DNA from: Vibrio fortis
GTDB taxonomy: Bacteria > Pseudomonadota > Gammaproteobacteria > Enterobacterales > Vibrionaceae
Direction: 5' to 3'
DNA length: 64,000 nucleotides
NCBI RefSeq assembly: GCF_000695685.1
Contig: NZ_JFFR01000002.1
Coordinates: forward strand, 806,001-870,000
Below the pieces are notes generated by a model. It saw nothing but the letters and a program-made list of their open reading frames with translations, did not search any database and was not told the origin of the DNA. The position numbers and the translations under genes were made by a program. This document shows, piece by piece, positions 34,683 through 42,862 of the stretch (position 1 is the first letter of the stretch; each line of letters opens with the position of its first letter).

Positions 34683-36155
34683 CTAGGTATCATCACGACT
34701 TAACTTCAACGTTTCTTGCTGAGAGCGTTTTATTTGGTTATCTCTTACTTCTTTTGAAGTAAAGAGCATACCCATGACATCTTGAGAGGTGTCAACGCCA
34801 GAGCCGTTACGGAAGTCCATTACGAATTCGTGTAGCAGAATTGAAGACTCTTCTTTAGTGAACAAATAAGATTGAGAAACACTAGAATTTTGCGATACCA
34901 ATAAATCGTCGGCTATTGCAGATGGTACACTCGACATGTCAATCGTAGGTACTTGTACCCCAGAGTCTATATTTGAGTAAATAGTGTGCCTCATTACATA
35001 TGGAGTAGAGCCATTCGTCGCTCCTTGTTGAAAACTAACTCGCTGAAAACCAGTCTCCGACCCCAAGCCTAAACTTGTACTTAAGTCAATTTGCTGAGCG
35101 CCCATTGTCGGTTTTGAGTCATTAGTATTTGAAAGCGTGAACAAAGAGGTGTCATCTATAACAAGATCCCAATTTTCTGATACCGATGCACCATACTCTG
35201 CAGACCAGTTTGCTGTATTGATTGTACCTTCTACGCCAAAGGTCCATACATCGCCATTACTTAAATTAGTTGGGTGATAGAATGACGCGCTACGATTAAT
35301 GTCAACTAAATCATAATTAAACCCACCAAACACAACGTCAATGGAAATGTTAGTGAAGTTAATAAGGCTGCTTGAAACATCAGGCGTGCTCGATGTGCCT
35401 GCAAATATCATTTGATTATCAGGCCAAGAATCAAAGCCATACTGGAACAACTCGCTTCTATCTGCGGTACGATACTGTGAAACCATAGTTTTCTCAGGAG
35501 AAACCGACTTAAGTACATTAGCTCCGGTTAACTGAGGGTTTGTGCTGGTTTGCGTCTCTATCTGTGAATCAAAATAGTAAGTAACGTTAGGGTTACCCAC
35601 GCTATCACTAGCGTTTAGGTATCGTAACTCAGATAAAGTAACTTCTTGGTCATTTGATCCTGAATTAGAAATACATTGGGTGTTTGCCACAGACTGTTCA
35701 ACTGAAAGGTAAGCAGACTTAAGCTCTTGGTCAGCTTCTAGCACATCACGGCTAAAGGTAATAGCATTGATAATGGTTCCATTAGCTTCTTGTAAGGTAA
35801 ACGCGCCTCCGTCAGGAACATTTTCTAAAACCATTTCCACAACGCCATTTGATGCTTCAATCAAGCTACCATCTATGTTGCCGTTTGTATCAGAGTACGA
35901 GCCAACGATACGATCGTCCAAAGCACTACCTATACTATGATATGTAAGAACCTTCGGCGTTCCATTGTCATCAAACTCCCTATAAATAGTACAGCTGCCT
36001 ACATTGGTAGCATCAACCACAACCGGTGTTACAAAAGTAAATTGATACTTAGTTTGTGCAGGGCCGCCACCACCGCCACCGCCGCCTCCGCCGCCACAGC
36101 CAACAAGTAGTCCTGAGATAATTGCCGCTAGTGGCAACATTTGTGTCTTTTTCAT
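34683..36155 (-). CDS. Uncharacterised lipoprotein with poly-glycine linker
   Basis: I do not recognise a family. The 490-residue precursor has lipoprotein signal MKKTQMLPLAAIISGLLVGC, with C20 followed directly by eleven glycines and then PAQTKYQFTF. The rest is acidic, rich in Ser, Thr, Asn and short beta-strand-like stretches, with a few cysteines (CTIYRE, TQCISN), in keeping with a secreted beta-sandwich or beta-propeller protein on the outer membrane surface. No catalytic motif is evident. It has its own GGACGGAA ribosome binding site and terminator, and stands alone between the ABC transporter operon and the DUF3360 gene. Confidence 0.75.
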   Translation of the reverse strand: MKKTQMLPLAAIISGLLVGCGGGGGGGGGGGPAQTKYQFTFVTPVVVDATNVGSCTIYREFDDNGTPKVLTYHSIGSALDDRIVGSYSDTNGNIDGSLIEASNGVVEMVLENVPDGGAFTLQEANGTIINAITFSRDVLEADQELKSAYLSVEQSVANTQCISNSGSNDQEVTLSELRYLNASDSVGNPNVTYYFDSQIETQTSTNPQLTGANVLKSVSPEKTMVSQYRTADRSELFQYGFDSWPDNQMIFAGTSSTPDVSSSLINFTNISIDVVFGGFNYDLVDINRSASFYHPTNLSNGDVWTFGVEGTINTANWSAEYGASVSENWDLVIDDTSLFTLSNTNDSKPTMGAQQIDLSTSLGLGSETGFQRVSFQQGATNGSTPYVMRHTIYSNIDSGVQVPTIDMSSVPSAIADDLLVSQNSSVSQSYLFTKEESSILLHEFVMDFRNGSGVDTSQDVMGMLFTSKEVRDNQIKRSQQETLKLSRDDT

Positions 36156-36595
36156 CTATTTCCGTCCTGTTTGTGGCAACAGCGCGCCAAAATTTAGTCT
36201 CTACGGATGATGTAGCAAAAAACAAGCCAAGCATTAAAAGGCTTACTTGTTTTTCTAACAAAAATGTGACGGGATGAGATAAACGTCAAGTTATGAAAAC
36301 AAATTACACGTTTTTTTAAAGATTACTTATTGAGCATTGTCATTTTGTAGCTTTCTTTCACATAAACTCATAAAGTGATCAAGATCAATCACCCTAAAGG
36401 GTAAGCTTGTTAGACTCCTCGACACACAATAAGGCATATAAAAATGCCAAATGTTTCTTTTAACTTAGCTGCACAAGGCACGCAAAAACCGTGCAACATT
36501 GTGTTAATGAGTTATAAACAAAAGAGATGACGCAGTTTTGCGCATTTATAGAATTCATTTTTAGAATTACTACCAAATAAAAATATGAGGAATCT
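36156..36595. other. Region upstream of the DUF3360 gene
   Basis: This 440-bp AT-rich region contains an FNR-like site (listed separately), a GCACG / CGTGC hairpin near 36479-36496, and a 28-codon frame at 36444-36530 (starting MPNVSFNLAAQ) whose ribosome binding site is poor; it was not called as a gene. The promoters of the two divergent genes must lie here. Confidence 0.45.
36375..36388. promoter_or_regulatory. FNR/CRP-family-like site
   Basis: GTGATCAAGATCAA matches the FNR consensus TTGAT-N4-ATCAA at nine of ten conserved positions. It lies 208 bp before the start of the DUF3360 gene. FNR control would fit with the neighbouring pflB. Confidence 0.5.
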
Positions 36596-38137
36596 ATGTC
36601 AGACGTTGTCAACAATGCGAACTCTGAAGTAGAAGAAAAGAGCTATCAAGAGCTACACCGCCCTGCTTCTGAATTCGAAAGCCGCTCCGACTATCTAGAT
36701 CACGAGCTGCAAATCATGAAGCCTCGCCGCTTCGGCCTTAACCTTCCTGGTCGTGACTTCCGTTTTGAACTTGAAGACCTTGTTCCGGCGCTTGCTGGTA
36801 CTATCGGCATCATCGCGATGTACTCTGCGGTTATGATGTCTTGGGCTGAAGGTCTGACGCAAGCTTGGGATCACGTGAACCTAGGTAAAGACTTCGCTAT
36901 CGAAGTCGCTCGTGTAGAGATGCTTATTCCTGCACTACTCTTCTGTATCCTTGCTTCTGGTTTCTTCAACCCGAAAGCAAACCTTGCCGGTAACCACGGC
37001 CCAATGATCCCACTTATCGGTACCATCGCTCTTGCAGGTGCTCACCCTCTTGCATTGGCTATCCTTATCGGTGTGTTTGGTTTAATCCTGAGTTTGCTCA
37101 AAGGTGGCTCTAAACTGGTTAACCTCACTTCCGAAGGTACTGCTGGTGGCTTGCTTATTTTCTTAGGTCTAACGGGTACGATGAGCCAGATCAACTCGAT
37201 CCAAGCTTGGGCTGTTGGTCTAGAGTCTGACACAGTTGCTGCGGGTAGCATGGGTTACATTGGCCTTATCGTACTTGCTGTTACCATCGGCCTTTACGCT
37301 TTCCTTGCTAAAGTGAACAAGCGTTGGCTAGCAATTCCTGTTTGTGCTTTCACTGGTCTAGCGATTGCTCTGGTTCTTGGTGCAGGCTTCGACATTAAAT
37401 TCGTAACAGAAACAGGTCTTCCAAACCTAAACCCAGTTTACTGGTGGGGTTCTACTGAAGAAGGTTGGATGCTAGGTCTTCCAAACATGGAGCACTTCAT
37501 TGCATCTCTACCATTTGCAATCCTTGCGGTAGCAATGTGGTCACCAGATTTCCTAGGTCACCGTATCTTCCAAGAGCTGAACTACCCTAAAAAATCTGAA
37601 AAAGTACTGATGGACGTAGATGACACAATGACTATGTGTTCTGTGCGTCAAATGGTTGGTACAGCTGTAGGTGGCGGTAACATCACTTCATCTTGGGGTA
37701 CTTACATGATCCCAGCAGCGATCGCTAAACGTCCTATCCCGGGCGGTGCAATCCTACTTGGCTCTCTATGTATCATCGTTGCGATTCTTGGCTTCCCAAT
37801 GGACGTTGCGGTGTGGCCACCAGTGATGCGTGTTGCTCTTCTAGTTGGTGTATCTCTTCCTCTACTTGAAGCAGGTATGCAGATGGTTAAAGACAGCAAA
37901 GATTCACAAGCGGCGGGTATCTGTATCTTCGGCTCTGCGGTTGTTAACCCAGTTCTAGCATGGGCTCTAACGATGCTTCTAGATAACAACGGCCTGATCG
38001 GTGACAAAGAGCGTCCTAAGCGTCTATCTTTTGTAGACAAGATTGTTATCCCAGTAGGTGTACTTGTTATCTGTCTTGTTGCAATGCTTGCAGTAGGTAT
38101 GCTTGAAGGTCAATACGGCATTAAAGCTTGGCTGTAA
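36596..38137 (+). CDS. DUF3360 multi-pass membrane protein (putative permease)
   Basis: A 513-residue protein with a soluble N-terminus of about 70 residues, then eleven or twelve hydrophobic segments. I assign it to the uncharacterised DUF3360 family, common in Vibrio. Conserved-looking polar motifs within membrane segments include GNHGPMIPLIG, LTSEGTAGGLLIF and GTAVGGGNITSSWGTYMIP, which suggest an anion or nucleobase/sulphate-type permease fold (NAT/SulP-like), but the substrate is unknown. It has its own terminator and lies 342 bp upstream of pflB, the place usually taken by the formate channel gene focA. Confidence 0.78.
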   Translation: MSDVVNNANSEVEEKSYQELHRPASEFESRSDYLDHELQIMKPRRFGLNLPGRDFRFELEDLVPALAGTIGIIAMYSAVMMSWAEGLTQAWDHVNLGKDFAIEVARVEMLIPALLFCILASGFFNPKANLAGNHGPMIPLIGTIALAGAHPLALAILIGVFGLILSLLKGGSKLVNLTSEGTAGGLLIFLGLTGTMSQINSIQAWAVGLESDTVAAGSMGYIGLIVLAVTIGLYAFLAKVNKRWLAIPVCAFTGLAIALVLGAGFDIKFVTETGLPNLNPVYWWGSTEEGWMLGLPNMEHFIASLPFAILAVAMWSPDFLGHRIFQELNYPKKSEKVLMDVDDTMTMCSVRQMVGTAVGGGNITSSWGTYMIPAAIAKRPIPGGAILLGSLCIIVAILGFPMDVAVWPPVMRVALLVGVSLPLLEAGMQMVKDSKDSQAAGICIFGSAVVNPVLAWALTMLLDNNGLIGDKERPKRLSFVDKIVIPVGVLVICLVAMLAVGMLEGQYGIKAWL

Positions 38138-38217
38138 GTTGGTCTGAATACTCTGACCAAACGTATCTAGCCATCACAGCTAGATTCAAATAAACAGAGT
38201 AAATTCAAAAAAAGTTT

Positions 38218-38245
38218 GGGTGGTGAACGTCACCACCCCCTTTTT
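38218..38245 (+). terminator. DUF3360 gene terminator
   Basis: GGGTGGTGA / TCACCACCC stem with ACG loop, then CC and five T residues. Confidence 0.9.
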
Positions 38246-38346
38246 CTCAACTTTTTTTAGCATTTATTGATTTAGTTTAAGGTTTGCAGGATTTTTTTAG
38301 CGTAGTCTTGAATACATCGAAGTGAGACACCATTTAAAAAGTAATG

Positions 38347-38391
38347 ACAATATATATAATCATATGAATCCGATGTGATAATACATATTGT
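38347..38391. promoter_or_regulatory. Long imperfect dyad upstream of pflB
   Basis: ACAATATATATAATCATA and TGTGATAATACATATTGT are inverted copies over 18 bp with three mismatches, around a 9-base centre. The dyad ends 88 bp before the pflB ATG. It could be a regulator-binding site within the promoter, and it overlaps TATAAT-like sequences. Confidence 0.45.
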
Positions 38392-38479
38392 TATTAATAA
38401 GAGTGTACTACCCTATACAGGGGCGCTGGCTCAATAGCGTTAAAGTACGTGTTTTTTCTACTAAAAAGGTAGGTATGTC

Positions 38480-40756
38480 ATGGCAGAGCAATTTGCTAAA
38501 GCTTGGGAAGGTTTTGCTGCAGGTGAGTGGCAAAATGAAGTAAACGTTCGTGATTTCATTCAAAAGAACTACGCGCCGTATGAAGGCGACGAATCTTTCC
38601 TAGTTTCTGAAGGTACTGAGGCTACTAACAAGCTTTGGGCTTCGGTAATGGAAGGTATCAAACAGGAAAACGCAACTAAAGCACCTGTAGAATTCGATAC
38701 TTCTGTTATCTCTACCATCACTTCTCACGATGCTGGTTACATTGAGAAAGACCTAGAAACAATCGTTGGTCTTCAAACTGAGAAGCCACTTAAGCGTGCT
38801 ATCATCCCTAACGGCGGTATCCGCATGGTTGAGGGTTCTTGTAAAGCATACGGTGAGACTCTTGATCCAGCTGTTTCAAAAATCTACTCTGAATACCGTA
38901 AAACACACAACGCAGGTGTTTTCGATATCTACACGCCTGACATCCTAAAATGTCGTAAGTCTGGTGTTCTGACTGGTCTTCCAGATGCATACGGTCGTGG
39001 TCGTATCATCGGTGACTACCGTCGTGTAGCTCTATACGGTATCGACTTCCTAATGAAAGACAAGCAAGCTCAATTTGCTTCTCTTCAAGAGCAATTCGAA
39101 AGCGGCGAAAACCTAGCAGAAACAATGCAACTTCGCGAAGAGATCTCTGAGCAACACCGCGCTCTAGGTCAAATCAAAGAGATGGCTGCTAAATACGGCT
39201 TCGATATCTCTGAGCCAGCTCAAACTGCTCAAGAAGCTATCCAATGGACGTACTTCGGTTACCTAGCGGCTGTTAAGTCTCAAAACGGTGCTGCAATGTC
39301 TCTAGGTCGTACTTCGACTTTCCTAGACATCTTCATCGAGCGTGATATCGCTGCAGGCAAGATCACTGAAGTTGAAGCTCAAGAGATGATCGACCACTTC
39401 GTAATGAAGCTACGTATGGTTCGTTTCCTGCGTACTCCTGAGTACGATGAGCTATTCTCTGGTGACCCAATCTGGGCTACTGAGTCTATGGGTGGTATGG
39501 GTATTGACGGTCGTACACTAGTTACACGTACTAACTTCCGTTTCCTAAACTCTCTATACACAATGGGTCCTTCTCCAGAGCCAAACATCACTGTTCTTTG
39601 GTCTGAGCAACTACCTGACGGCTTCAAGCGTTTCTGTGCGAAGGTATCTATCGATACTTCTTCTATCCAGTACGAAAATGATGACCTAATGCGTCCTGAC
39701 CTAGAGTCTGATGATTACGCTATCGCTTGTTGTGTATCTCCAATGATCGTTGGTAAGCAAATGCAGTTCTTCGGTGCTCGTGCTAACCTTGCGAAAACAA
39801 TGCTTTACGCAATCAACGGTGGTGTAGATGAGAAGCTTAAACTTCAAGTAGGTCCTGTTTCTGACAAGATCACTGACGAAGTTCTTAACTACGATGACGT
39901 AATGGGTCGCCTAGACACATTCATGGACTGGCTAGCTAAGCAGTACGTGACTGCACTAAACAGCATCCACTACATGCACGACAAGTACAGCTACGAAGCG
40001 TCTCTAATGGCTCTTCACGACCGTGACGTTCGTCGTACTATGGCTTGCGGTATCGCTGGTCTATCTGTTGCGGCTGACTCTCTATCTGCAATTAAGTTTG
40101 CTACAGTTAAGCCAATCCGTGACGAAGACGGCATTGCTATCGATTTCGAAATCGAAGGCGATTACCCTAAATACGGTAACAACGACTCTCGTGTAGATGA
40201 TATCGCTTGTGAACTAGTTTCTACGTTCATGAACAAGATCCGTAAGCTTAAGACTTACCGTAACTCTATCCCTACACAGTCAGTTCTTACTATCACGTCT
40301 AACGTTGTATACGGTAAGAAAACTGGTAACACTCCAGACGGTCGTCGTGCTGGTGCTCCTTTCGCTCCTGGTGCTAACCCAATGCACGGTCGTGATGAGA
40401 AAGGTGCTGTAGCGTCACTAACGTCTGTAGGTAAACTACCGTTTGCTGATGCACAAGATGGTATCTCTTACACGTTCTCTATCGTACCTAACGCTCTTGG
40501 TAAAGACGTTGAAGGTCAGAAAGCGAACCTTGCAGGCCTAATGGATGGTTACTTCCACCACGAAGCTGGCATCGAAGGTGGTCAACACCTTAACGTGAAC
40601 GTTCTTAACCGCGACACTCTAGAAGACGCAGTTAAGCACCCTGAGAAATACCCTCAGCTAACAATCCGTGTATCTGGTTACGCTGTTCGCTTCAACTCTC
40701 TAACTGCAGAGCAACAAGCTGACGTAATCGCACGTACATTTACTGAGTCTCTATAA
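38480..40756 (+). CDS. pflB: Formate C-acetyltransferase (pyruvate formate-lyase)
   Basis: Glycyl-radical enzyme that converts pyruvate and CoA into acetyl-CoA and formate under anaerobiosis. The 758-residue protein starts [17 protein letters not shown]. The adjacent catalytic cysteines are C417 and C418 (AIACCVSPM), and the radical glycine is G733 in RVSGYAVRF, each one residue less than in E. coli. Codon use is highly biased, as for an abundant protein. The activating enzyme gene pflA lies 1.4 kb downstream, separated by an lpxR-type gene. Confidence 0.98.
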
Positions 40757-40814: not shown

Positions 40815-40956
40815 ATATCTGCAAAGTATTTCGTGCGCTGTCTCGACAAAATGAAATGTTAAGTTGCGCAAAAATGTTTTCTTACGTTCACTTTTTTTCC
40901 ACACCAATCACCAATTTGGGGTACTATTTCGGTTCGTTACCAAAGAGTACTTTTTA

Positions 40957-41958
40957 ATGAAACTTGTCCGTTTTTTACCTCTACTTCTATTGTCTTTTTC
41001 ATCGATCGCCTCAGAACGTTCTACCGTCACTTTCGCTCTCGATAACGACGGCATTTTTGGCGTCGACCAAGACTATACGAACGGCTTGTTTTTAAGCTAT
41101 ACCTCATCGGGAATCACTCCCTACAGCTGGGCCAAACCATTAAGCCTTTCGGCTTGGGGCGCTAGCTCGCTTGATAAATGGGAAATCACCATCGGTCACA
41201 AAATGTATACCCCATCCGATATTGAGGTGACTGAACCTTTAGCCAATGATCGTCCGTATGCTGGTTTCCTCCACTCAGAATTTAACTACATCAGTCTTCA
41301 CCCACAACAGGCTCAACGGTTCAACCTAACCCTGGGTACGACTGGTGAAAGTGCACTTTCTGAACAAGCACAAAAACTCGTGCACTCCATTACCAAGTCT
41401 GATGAACCAAATGGTTGGGAATTCCAGGTCGATGATGAGTTCGTCGGCAGTGTCGGTTACCTTAGCCACTTCAATATGATGCGTGCTCGCTCTATCGCAA
41501 ATACTGATTTCGAAATATCTAACGTGTCAGAAATTAACGCGGGTAACTTTAGGAGCGACATTTCAACAGGCTTTATGCTTCGTTGGGGTACTGACCTCGG
41601 TGGTAACTTTGGTGCGGCAACCATCACCTCAGAAAATCCGTTCCGCCCAGGTATGATTGGCGCTTCGAATAGAGGTTGGTTTACTTATGCTGGTATCGAA
41701 GGCCGTTATCGCTTCAATGATATTACGATTGAGGGTGACCGCTCTGGTGTTGAGAAGTATGCGCTAGAAAATGGCGAAAACCCAGCCATCTATGATGTGA
41801 CTTTAGAGAATATTCAAGCCACTGCAGTAGCTGGTGTTGCTTGGTACAATCAACATGTGGGCGCAGCGTTCTCATTAACCATGAAAACACCTGATTATGA
41901 AGAAGCCAAAGAGTCCATTTATACAACAGGTGGTGTGACTTTCTTTGCGTTCTTTTAG
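40957..41958 (+). CDS. LpxR-type lipid A 3'-O-deacylase, outer membrane (DUF2219)
   Basis: A 333-residue precursor with signal peptide MKLVRFLPLLLLSFSSIAS. The mature protein has the LpxR family hallmarks: an N-terminal strand with the LDNDG motif (Asn-Asp of the active site), the TNG block, NDRPYAGFLHSEF, and the LVHSITKSDEPNGWEFQ segment that carries the catalytic histidine. It ends in phenylalanine (TFFAFF) for barrel assembly. In Salmonella and Helicobacter, LpxR removes the 3'-acyloxyacyl chain of lipid A in the outer leaflet. The start at 40957 was chosen for the signal peptide; an upstream in-frame start would add 31 residues. It stands alone between pflB and pflA, with its own terminator. 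Confidence 0.85.
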   Translation: MKLVRFLPLLLLSFSSIASERSTVTFALDNDGIFGVDQDYTNGLFLSYTSSGITPYSWAKPLSLSAWGASSLDKWEITIGHKMYTPSDIEVTEPLANDRPYAGFLHSEFNYISLHPQQAQRFNLTLGTTGESALSEQAQKLVHSITKSDEPNGWEFQVDDEFVGSVGYLSHFNMMRARSIANTDFEISNVSEINAGNFRSDISTGFMLRWGTDLGGNFGAATITSENPFRPGMIGASNRGWFTYAGIEGRYRFNDITIEGDRSGVEKYALENGENPAIYDVTLENIQATAVAGVAWYNQHVGAAFSLTMKTPDYEEAKESIYTTGGVTFFAFF

Positions 41959-42121: not shown

Positions 42122-42862
42122 ATGTCTACAACTGGTCGCATTCACTCATTCGAATCTTGTGGTACCGTCGACGGCCCAGGAATCCGCTTTATTGTGTTTC
42201 TACAGGGCTGTTTAATGCGCTGTATGTATTGTCATAACCGTGACACTTGGGACACTCATGACGGCAAAGAAGTTACCGTTGAGGAGATCATCAACGAAGC
42301 AAAATCGTATCGTCATTTTATGAAGGCCTCAGGTGGTGGTGTGACATGTTCAGGCGGCGAAGCGATGCTTCAACCTGAGTTTGTACGCGACTTCTTCTTA
42401 GCAGCAAAAGCCGAAGGTATACACACTTGTCTTGATACTAACGGCTACATCCGTAAACACACCGAAGTTGTTGATGAAGTTCTCGACGCTGCAGATTTGG
42501 TGATGTTGGACCTCAAGCATATGCGAGATGAGATTCACCAAGATTTCATCGGTGTCTCTAATAAACGTACTCTAGACTTCGCGCGCTATTTACACAAAAT
42601 TGGTAAGACGACGTGGATTCGTTACGTAGTGGTACCTGGTTACACAGATAACCCTGAAGATGCTCGCCTATTAGGTGAATTCATCAAAGACATGGACAAC
42701 ATCGAAAAAGTTGAGCTACTACCGTACCACAAACTTGGCGCTCACAAGTGGGAAGCTCTAGGCATTGAGTACCCTCTAGAAGGCGTAAATCCGCCAAGCA
42801 AAGAGACCATGGATGAGATCGTATCAATACTGAGTGAGTACCACTCAAACGTTAAATACTGA
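42122..42862 (+). CDS. pflA: Pyruvate formate-lyase 1 activating enzyme
   Basis: Radical SAM enzyme that installs the glycyl radical on PflB. The 246-residue product, the same length as in E. coli, has the CxxxCxxC cluster motif at C30, C34 and C37 ([16 protein letters not shown]), the glycine-rich [15 protein letters not shown] segment and the [14 protein letters not shown]-terminal block. GAGAGC near the ATG is a weak ribosome binding site. It has its own promoter region of about 160 bp after the upstream terminator. Confidence 0.97.

Follow-up and report, generated by a model that had tools for sequence, protein, structure and literature searches.

The analyzed window is a stretch of 64,000 nucleotides from Vibrio fortis (contig NZ_JFFR01000002.1), and the gene under study lies at positions 36596-38137 of its forward strand. 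It encodes a 513-aa putative carrier, homologous to PurT/UraA-like proteins, which was assigned to the DUF3360 family by its Pfam match and to clade A of that family by tree analysis. The match to the Pfam model PF11840 reached 969.5 bits (cut-off 26.2) over residues 9-513, confirming the DUF3360 gene that the initial annotation had placed upstream of pflB. On the same strand follow pflB, encoding pyruvate formate-lyase (PFL; 38480-40756; TIGR01255, 1331 bits), a gene for an LpxR-like outer membrane protein (40954-41958; PF09982), and pflA, encoding the PFL-activating enzyme (42122-42862; PRK11145/TIGR02493). The gap between DUF3360 and pflB contains a perfect, bidirectional terminator-like hairpin followed by T-rich sequence (38218-38238, both strands), and 221 nt before the DUF3360 start codon a palindrome, GTGATCAAGATCAA (36375-36388), agrees at 9 of 10 positions with TTGAT-N4-ATCAA, the FNR consensus used here for scoring sites. 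An Rfam scan of positions 36000-38700 gave nothing at gathering score.

Divergently from DUF3360, a lipoprotein-like open reading frame (ORF) of unassigned family (34683-36155, reverse strand; ORF prediction and Pfam scan) forms a variable neighbour in the interval between an ABC-transporter operon and DUF3360. It includes a long glycine run and had no above-threshold match in the Pfam scan, and its relatives were present upstream of DUF3360 in only part of the Vibrio loci. Most of the Vibrio loci examined had the LpxR-like gene between pflB and pflA; as a tblastn query it matched nothing in the pfl loci searched from Enterovibrio, Photobacterium and other families. A second DUF3360 paralogue (L006:6232-7740; G000:C2:136246) was 55% identical to the window protein, and its neighbours on either side had no Pfam matches. 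In three Vibrio genomes (G001:C56, G003:C2 and G010:C2) the DUF3360 match was split into two pieces. In the literature searched, no paper mentioning the names DUF3360 or PF11840 was found.

A single DUF3360 sequence yielded no match among PDB sequences. A profile of 40 diverse members, searched against the same sequences, matched PurT (7tak, "putative membrane protein PurT"), a NAT/SLC23 purine carrier of Colwellia psychrerythraea, with an E-value of 2e-5, the sole other match being FliQ (E 0.26). The reverse search, with the PurT stretch as query against 295 genomes of the order, brought up 12 proteins that were clearly PurT-like and at least one PF00860 gene. It also reached DUF3360 at nine places, distributed over eight genomes, with nearly the whole stretch covered (per-genome E-values of 2.6e-6 to 4.5e-4); eight of these places belonged to other DUF3360 clades and one (G012:C5) to clade A, while the DUF3360 genes of the remaining genomes in this sample were not reached. 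Alignment of the 40 DUF3360 members with the 12 PurT-like proteins by hhalign gave 96.4% (P 1.3e-9, 389 columns); with unchanged settings, none of five control sets (FNT, ArtQM, MCP, PFL and an unnamed family) exceeded 2.4%. No direct signal was obtained by hhalign between DUF3360 and the sets labelled here UraA-like (0.6%) and AzgA-like (0.5%), which counts against the reading favoured below; PurT-like and AzgA-like sets matched each other at 26%.

DUF3360 was accordingly classed with PurT-like members of NAT/NCS2, on significant homology in both directions to a member of solved structure, and outside NAT/NCS2 proper, since the window protein scored 10.3 bits against PF00860 (cut-off 27); a PF00860 match at E ≤ 1 was seen in 1 of the 40 members. 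This apparent placing of DUF3360 as a remote, near-full-length homologue of PurT is new. The family probably consists of carriers with the UraA/NAT fold, and homology to PurT, a protein of 14 transmembrane segments, suggests the same number for DUF3360. The mean hydropathy of 40 homologues showed ten hydrophobic stretches, of which two could each accommodate a pair of segments by their length, in line with the 11-12 membrane segments initially proposed. An AlphaFold2 model built from 67 close relatives (sharing 85-99% identity with the window protein) had a pLDDT of 39.6; as this model was poor, the fold assignment rests on sequence homology. A scan of viral contigs provided no more diverse DUF3360 sequences.

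Asp318 was invariant in the 40 DUF3360 members and aligned with an aspartate that PurT-like proteins and many UraA-like ones have in TM8. The acidic positions of TM8 and TM10 in UraA-like proteins, which in UraA/UapA are acidic/amide nucleobase-binding positions, correspond in the joint alignment to Met314 and Gly368 of DUF3360, the placing of TM10 being uncertain at this remote level. In a tree of 91 proteins (79 DUF3360 and 12 PurT-like) computed with a quick method, clade A comprised 40 rows with an SH-aLRT support of 100. It was separated from the rest of the family at 23 positions, six of them in TM1 (68, 72, 76, 77, 80 and 83), one at the entry of TM3 (Asn133 vs. Thr) and 16 elsewhere; substrate binding in the UraA/NAT fold involves TM1 and TM3.

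Clade A might transport purines or nucleobases as PurT does, with its position beside pfl genes explained by the link between formate and purine synthesis. PurT is the nearest and sole solved relative and a purine carrier, which also counts against a formate cargo, and in clade-A locus L133 DUF3360 has a 5'-nucleotidase gene two genes away, as would suit a purine carrier. The replacement of the TM8 and TM10 acids by Met314 and Gly368 argues the other way, yet the TM8 acid is missing from PurT as well, and these residues are therefore not decisive; and among about 30 scanned neighbours, a minority of all, no known purine gene was present except at L133. Taken together, we regard a purine cargo as distinctly unlikely.

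The named Vibrionaceae set, made up of the 80 best among 418 confirmed matches, was highly uniform in position relative to pflB: pflB was directly downstream on the same strand in 76 of the 80 loci, and in the other four a contig edge was located at most 332 bp from DUF3360. Adjacency inside Vibrio alone was set aside as weak evidence, and other families were examined instead. All sources together provided 130 distinct loci of the clade-A type, of which 103 were assessable, either showing pflB or having 3 kb or more of sequence available downstream. DUF3360 was beside pflB in 97 of these 103 loci, distributed over six families and several rearranged layouts (same strand within 1 kb in 89, same strand at 1-3 kb in 5, divergent in 3), so that the contextual link to PFL pointed out in the initial annotation extends beyond Vibrio. 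The six assessable loci without pflB (L124, L133 and L166-L169) count against the reading that we favour below. When only loci with at least 3 kb downstream were considered, pflB was found in 95 of 101 (71 named Vibrionaceae and 30 others); since Vibrio dominates the loci, the other families, with pflB in 24 of 30, weigh more.

The layouts differed among families (< and > give gene orientation; "art" is a label coined here for an operon of an ABC ATPase, a family-3 binding protein, both by Pfam, and permeases). Families f10 and f2 showed art < > DUF3360 > pflB > pflA > rlmA-like, and most members of f6 focA < > DUF3360 > pflB. In f12 the order was DUF3360 > ACT-domain gene < focA > pflB, or the same without focA, while in f21 DUF3360 was either divergent from pflB or followed by an ACT-domain gene, an exonuclease-family gene, focA and pflB. 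In Photobacterium, focA was downstream of pflA. The content of the slot between art and pflB also varied, being DUF3360, focA or neither: focA occupied it in the DUF3360-less genomes G037, G240 and G143 (divergently oriented in G122), neither gene was there in G116, G242, G272, G196 and G171, and an MscS-like gene was found in G262. Two genomes with an identical genus label differed in this slot, which held focA in G037 and DUF3360 in G151, the latter with a further focA elsewhere. The place beside pflB is thus old and exchangeable. In Vibrio G013 the slot was empty and DUF3360 was elsewhere in the genome; there it followed a DUF2813 gene, the place of a focA-CBS gene in the window's genome, a single case to which no evidential weight was given.

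The initial annotation had proposed that DUF3360 occupies the place of focA. As a statement of position this holds, as the pair G037 and G151 illustrates; as functional replacement it does not. A genome search revealed three FNT genes in the window's genome, two of which passed the FocA equivalog TIGR04060 (382 and 372 bits; cut-off 290), so that loss of focA was ruled out; the third, which comes after nitrite-reductase-like and Rieske-like genes, remained below the cut-off with 115 bits. Moreover, focA and DUF3360 shared one locus in Photobacterium and in some members of f6, f12 and f21. In some lineages, therefore, DUF3360 takes the position of focA but supplements the set of formate genes. 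As for the pair of observations initially named as speaking against the idea, focA was indeed found elsewhere in the genome, whereas the clade-A gene proved to lie near pflB in most relatives. One of the two FocA proteins has a CBS domain at its C-terminus, and its gene is paired with a divergent LysR gene (L008:5764-7215, G000:C27, with L008:4600-5505). FocA/LysR pairs of this kind were also observed in Photobacterium (L111) and in members of f2, f6, f13 and f21, and in f13 a LysR gene homologous to the FocA-paired one adjoined DUF3360 as well.

In the sample of 295 genomes of the order, 82 had a DUF3360 match, 63 of them high-scoring (≥ 912 bits); the high score served as a proxy for clade A, the tree having taken in only part of these genomes. 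A TIGR04060 match was present in all 63 (best E-values ≤ 1e-91). All 63 likewise had a pfl match (a weak one in the incomplete genome G160), compared with 142 of the 232 other genomes (Fisher P 5e-12, uncorrected for the relatedness of genomes). The tree added the lower-scoring G058 and G085 to clade A, giving 65 of 65 for pfl and TIGR04060 alike. Among genomes with only non-A DUF3360, 13 of 17 were without a pfl match. Four vibrios (G116, G242, G262 and G272) had pfl and no DUF3360 match, which again counts against the favoured reading.

Outside clade A, pflB was found in none of the DUF3360 loci with surrounding sequence. A gene for a permease of the SatP/YaaH family, whose substrates are acetate and succinate, was near DUF3360 in three of these loci (adjoining in L185 and L199, about 2.5 kb off in L125), and a Cache/PAS/DUF294 sensor gene adjoined it in six (L123, L127, L128, L131, L184 and L195), which form one cluster with two members domain-scanned. 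These neighbours hint at small acids as substrates in the wider family; in many non-A loci no common neighbour was seen, the neighbour scans covering a minority.

The clade-A protein could carry an acid linked to PFL other than formate, such as its substrate pyruvate, acetate or lactate, with formate left to FocA alone. Such a division of labour agrees with the FocA matches already present in the sampled clade-A genomes, which make the need for another formate carrier not obvious, and with the SatP/YaaH genes near three non-A relatives. The exchange of clade A with focA at the same slot points instead to formate, as does the LysR gene adjoining DUF3360 in f13, 52-53% identical to the focA-CBS partner in the window's genome, a weak link because the focA-CBS gene of f13 retains its own LysR neighbour. 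On balance we judge a non-formate acid rather unlikely.

An FNR-like site scoring 9-10 of 10 within 450 bp upstream was detected in 110 of 129 clade-A promoters (4.7% in Markov shuffles, which overstate the surprise as the loci are related), corroborating the FNR-like site initially noted in the DUF3360 promoter; one of the 130 loci was dropped from this count for its short upstream stretch. The corresponding figure was 2 of 39 for other DUF3360 loci (shuffles 4.1%), and with the stricter pattern NTGAT-N4-ATCAA the counts were 108 of 129 in clade A vs. 1 of 39 in other clades. The arms of the sites were constant, while spacer and position varied, and in a few loci the best match was off the usual distance. 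The site was retained in a Vibrio where DUF3360 had left pflB (G013, L133). No good site was found in f6 (0/9) and f13 (0/4), where the best scores were 7-8, and this counts against the favoured reading. Clade-A promoters carry the site looked for in members of the FNR regulon, and FNR is most likely the regulator, as a candidate suggested by these motifs; sites similar to those of FNR can also be used by CRP.

The gene neighbourhood might instead be an inherited order with no functional link. Synteny is generally conserved in Vibrio, so the 76 of 80 Vibrionaceae loci are not independent, and in some vibrios a locus that is otherwise similar does not contain the gene. However, the association spans six families with varied layouts (same strand, divergent, or with an ACT-domain gene and focA in between), pfl was found in 63 of 63 high-scoring genomes, and the FNR-like site is conserved, all of which renders this explanation very unlikely.

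Terminator-like hairpins were found in 66 of 93 same-strand gaps between DUF3360 and pflB. At the window locus the hairpin bears out the view that the two genes are joined by context and not by a shared transcript. In f10, where the gaps are short (107-116 bp) and the hairpin was present in 0 of 5, separate transcripts are perhaps not the case.

By synteny, VC1865 would be the Vibrio cholerae orthologue of the DUF3360 gene. Locus L097 of V. mimicus has the order art < > DUF3360 > pflB, which matches the divergence of VC1864 and VC1865. According to the respective reports, PFL of V. cholerae is VC1866 (PMC2714520), VC1864 and VC1865 are divergently oriented with a CRP ChIP peak in the region between them, upstream of VC1865 (PMC6050953), a pulse of VqmR represses VC1865 9.6-fold (PMC6451090), and VC1865 is among the genes listed by a study on riboflavin and iron (PMC5816637). 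VC1865 is termed a hypothetical protein there, and its proposed orthology to the DUF3360 gene is one of synteny.

The reading that we favour, tentatively and as something just short of probable, is that clade A is an FNR-induced, proton-coupled, PurT-like carrier serving PFL metabolism, most likely for formate or a small carboxylate, which complements FocA. The protein would belong to the NAT/UraA (NCS2) superfamily as a secondary carrier, probably with 14 transmembrane segments arranged in a core and a gate domain. Its gene would be induced when oxygen is absent, most likely through FNR, and the product would serve pyruvate formate-lyase metabolism by moving formate most likely, or a small carboxylate such as pyruvate or acetate, together with protons, for which the invariant Asp318 in TM8 would be the coupling residue. 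DUF3360 may then work beside the FocA channel in the manner of a pump and not as its replacement. Of this reading, the family, the remote homology, the association of loci, the conserved FNR-like site and the co-existence with focA are observed, while fold details, proton coupling, transport direction, regulator and substrate are proposed. In a narrower form, which we consider doubtful, clade A would be a second, evolutionarily unrelated formate carrier, under FNR control and with a proton-coupled NAT fold, that moves formate against its gradient, FocA providing only a leak. Candidate substrates were ranked with formate first, other small acids second and purines third.

A putative secondary carrier is in itself ordinary; what is new is the placing of an unstudied family together with its strong PFL and FNR-site context. 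Gene order, co-occurrence and the conservation of an FNR-like site connect DUF3360 with pyruvate formate-lyase, and this connection, combined with the superfamily placement, opens its substrate to direct tests. Accounts of formate handling in mixed-acid fermentation usually name FocA alone, and the association could bear on the reason for focA being far from pflB in vibrios. If the formate reading were true, a fold of purine and vitamin-C carriers would have been adapted to a one-carbon acid, and fermenting vibrios and their relatives could move formate against its gradient.

Compared with known systems, DUF3360 is most similar to PurT, with which it has in common the GSKLV stretch and the TM8 aspartate (Asp318) as well as a remote homology that is found in both search directions and covers most of the length, at 24-27% identity in the DUF3360 matches of the reverse search. 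It differs from PurT in a longer N-terminal region, in forming a separate clade in the tree and in the little purine context of its loci. Resemblance to UraA/Xan_ur_permease (PF00860) is weak and sub-threshold; one PurT-like protein found in the order, which shares 88% identity with the PurT stretch, itself just passes this model (27.4 vs. 27 bits), and the acidic TM8 and TM10 positions of UraA are not kept in DUF3360. FNT proteins are short pentameric channels, and a simple FNT relative was ruled out, as the window protein had no match to PF01226 or TIGR04060, and hhalign of DUF3360 against FNT gave 0.2%. FocA, a member of that family, can nevertheless hold the same slot upstream of pflB, and it occurs together with DUF3360, a putative carrier of 500 aa.
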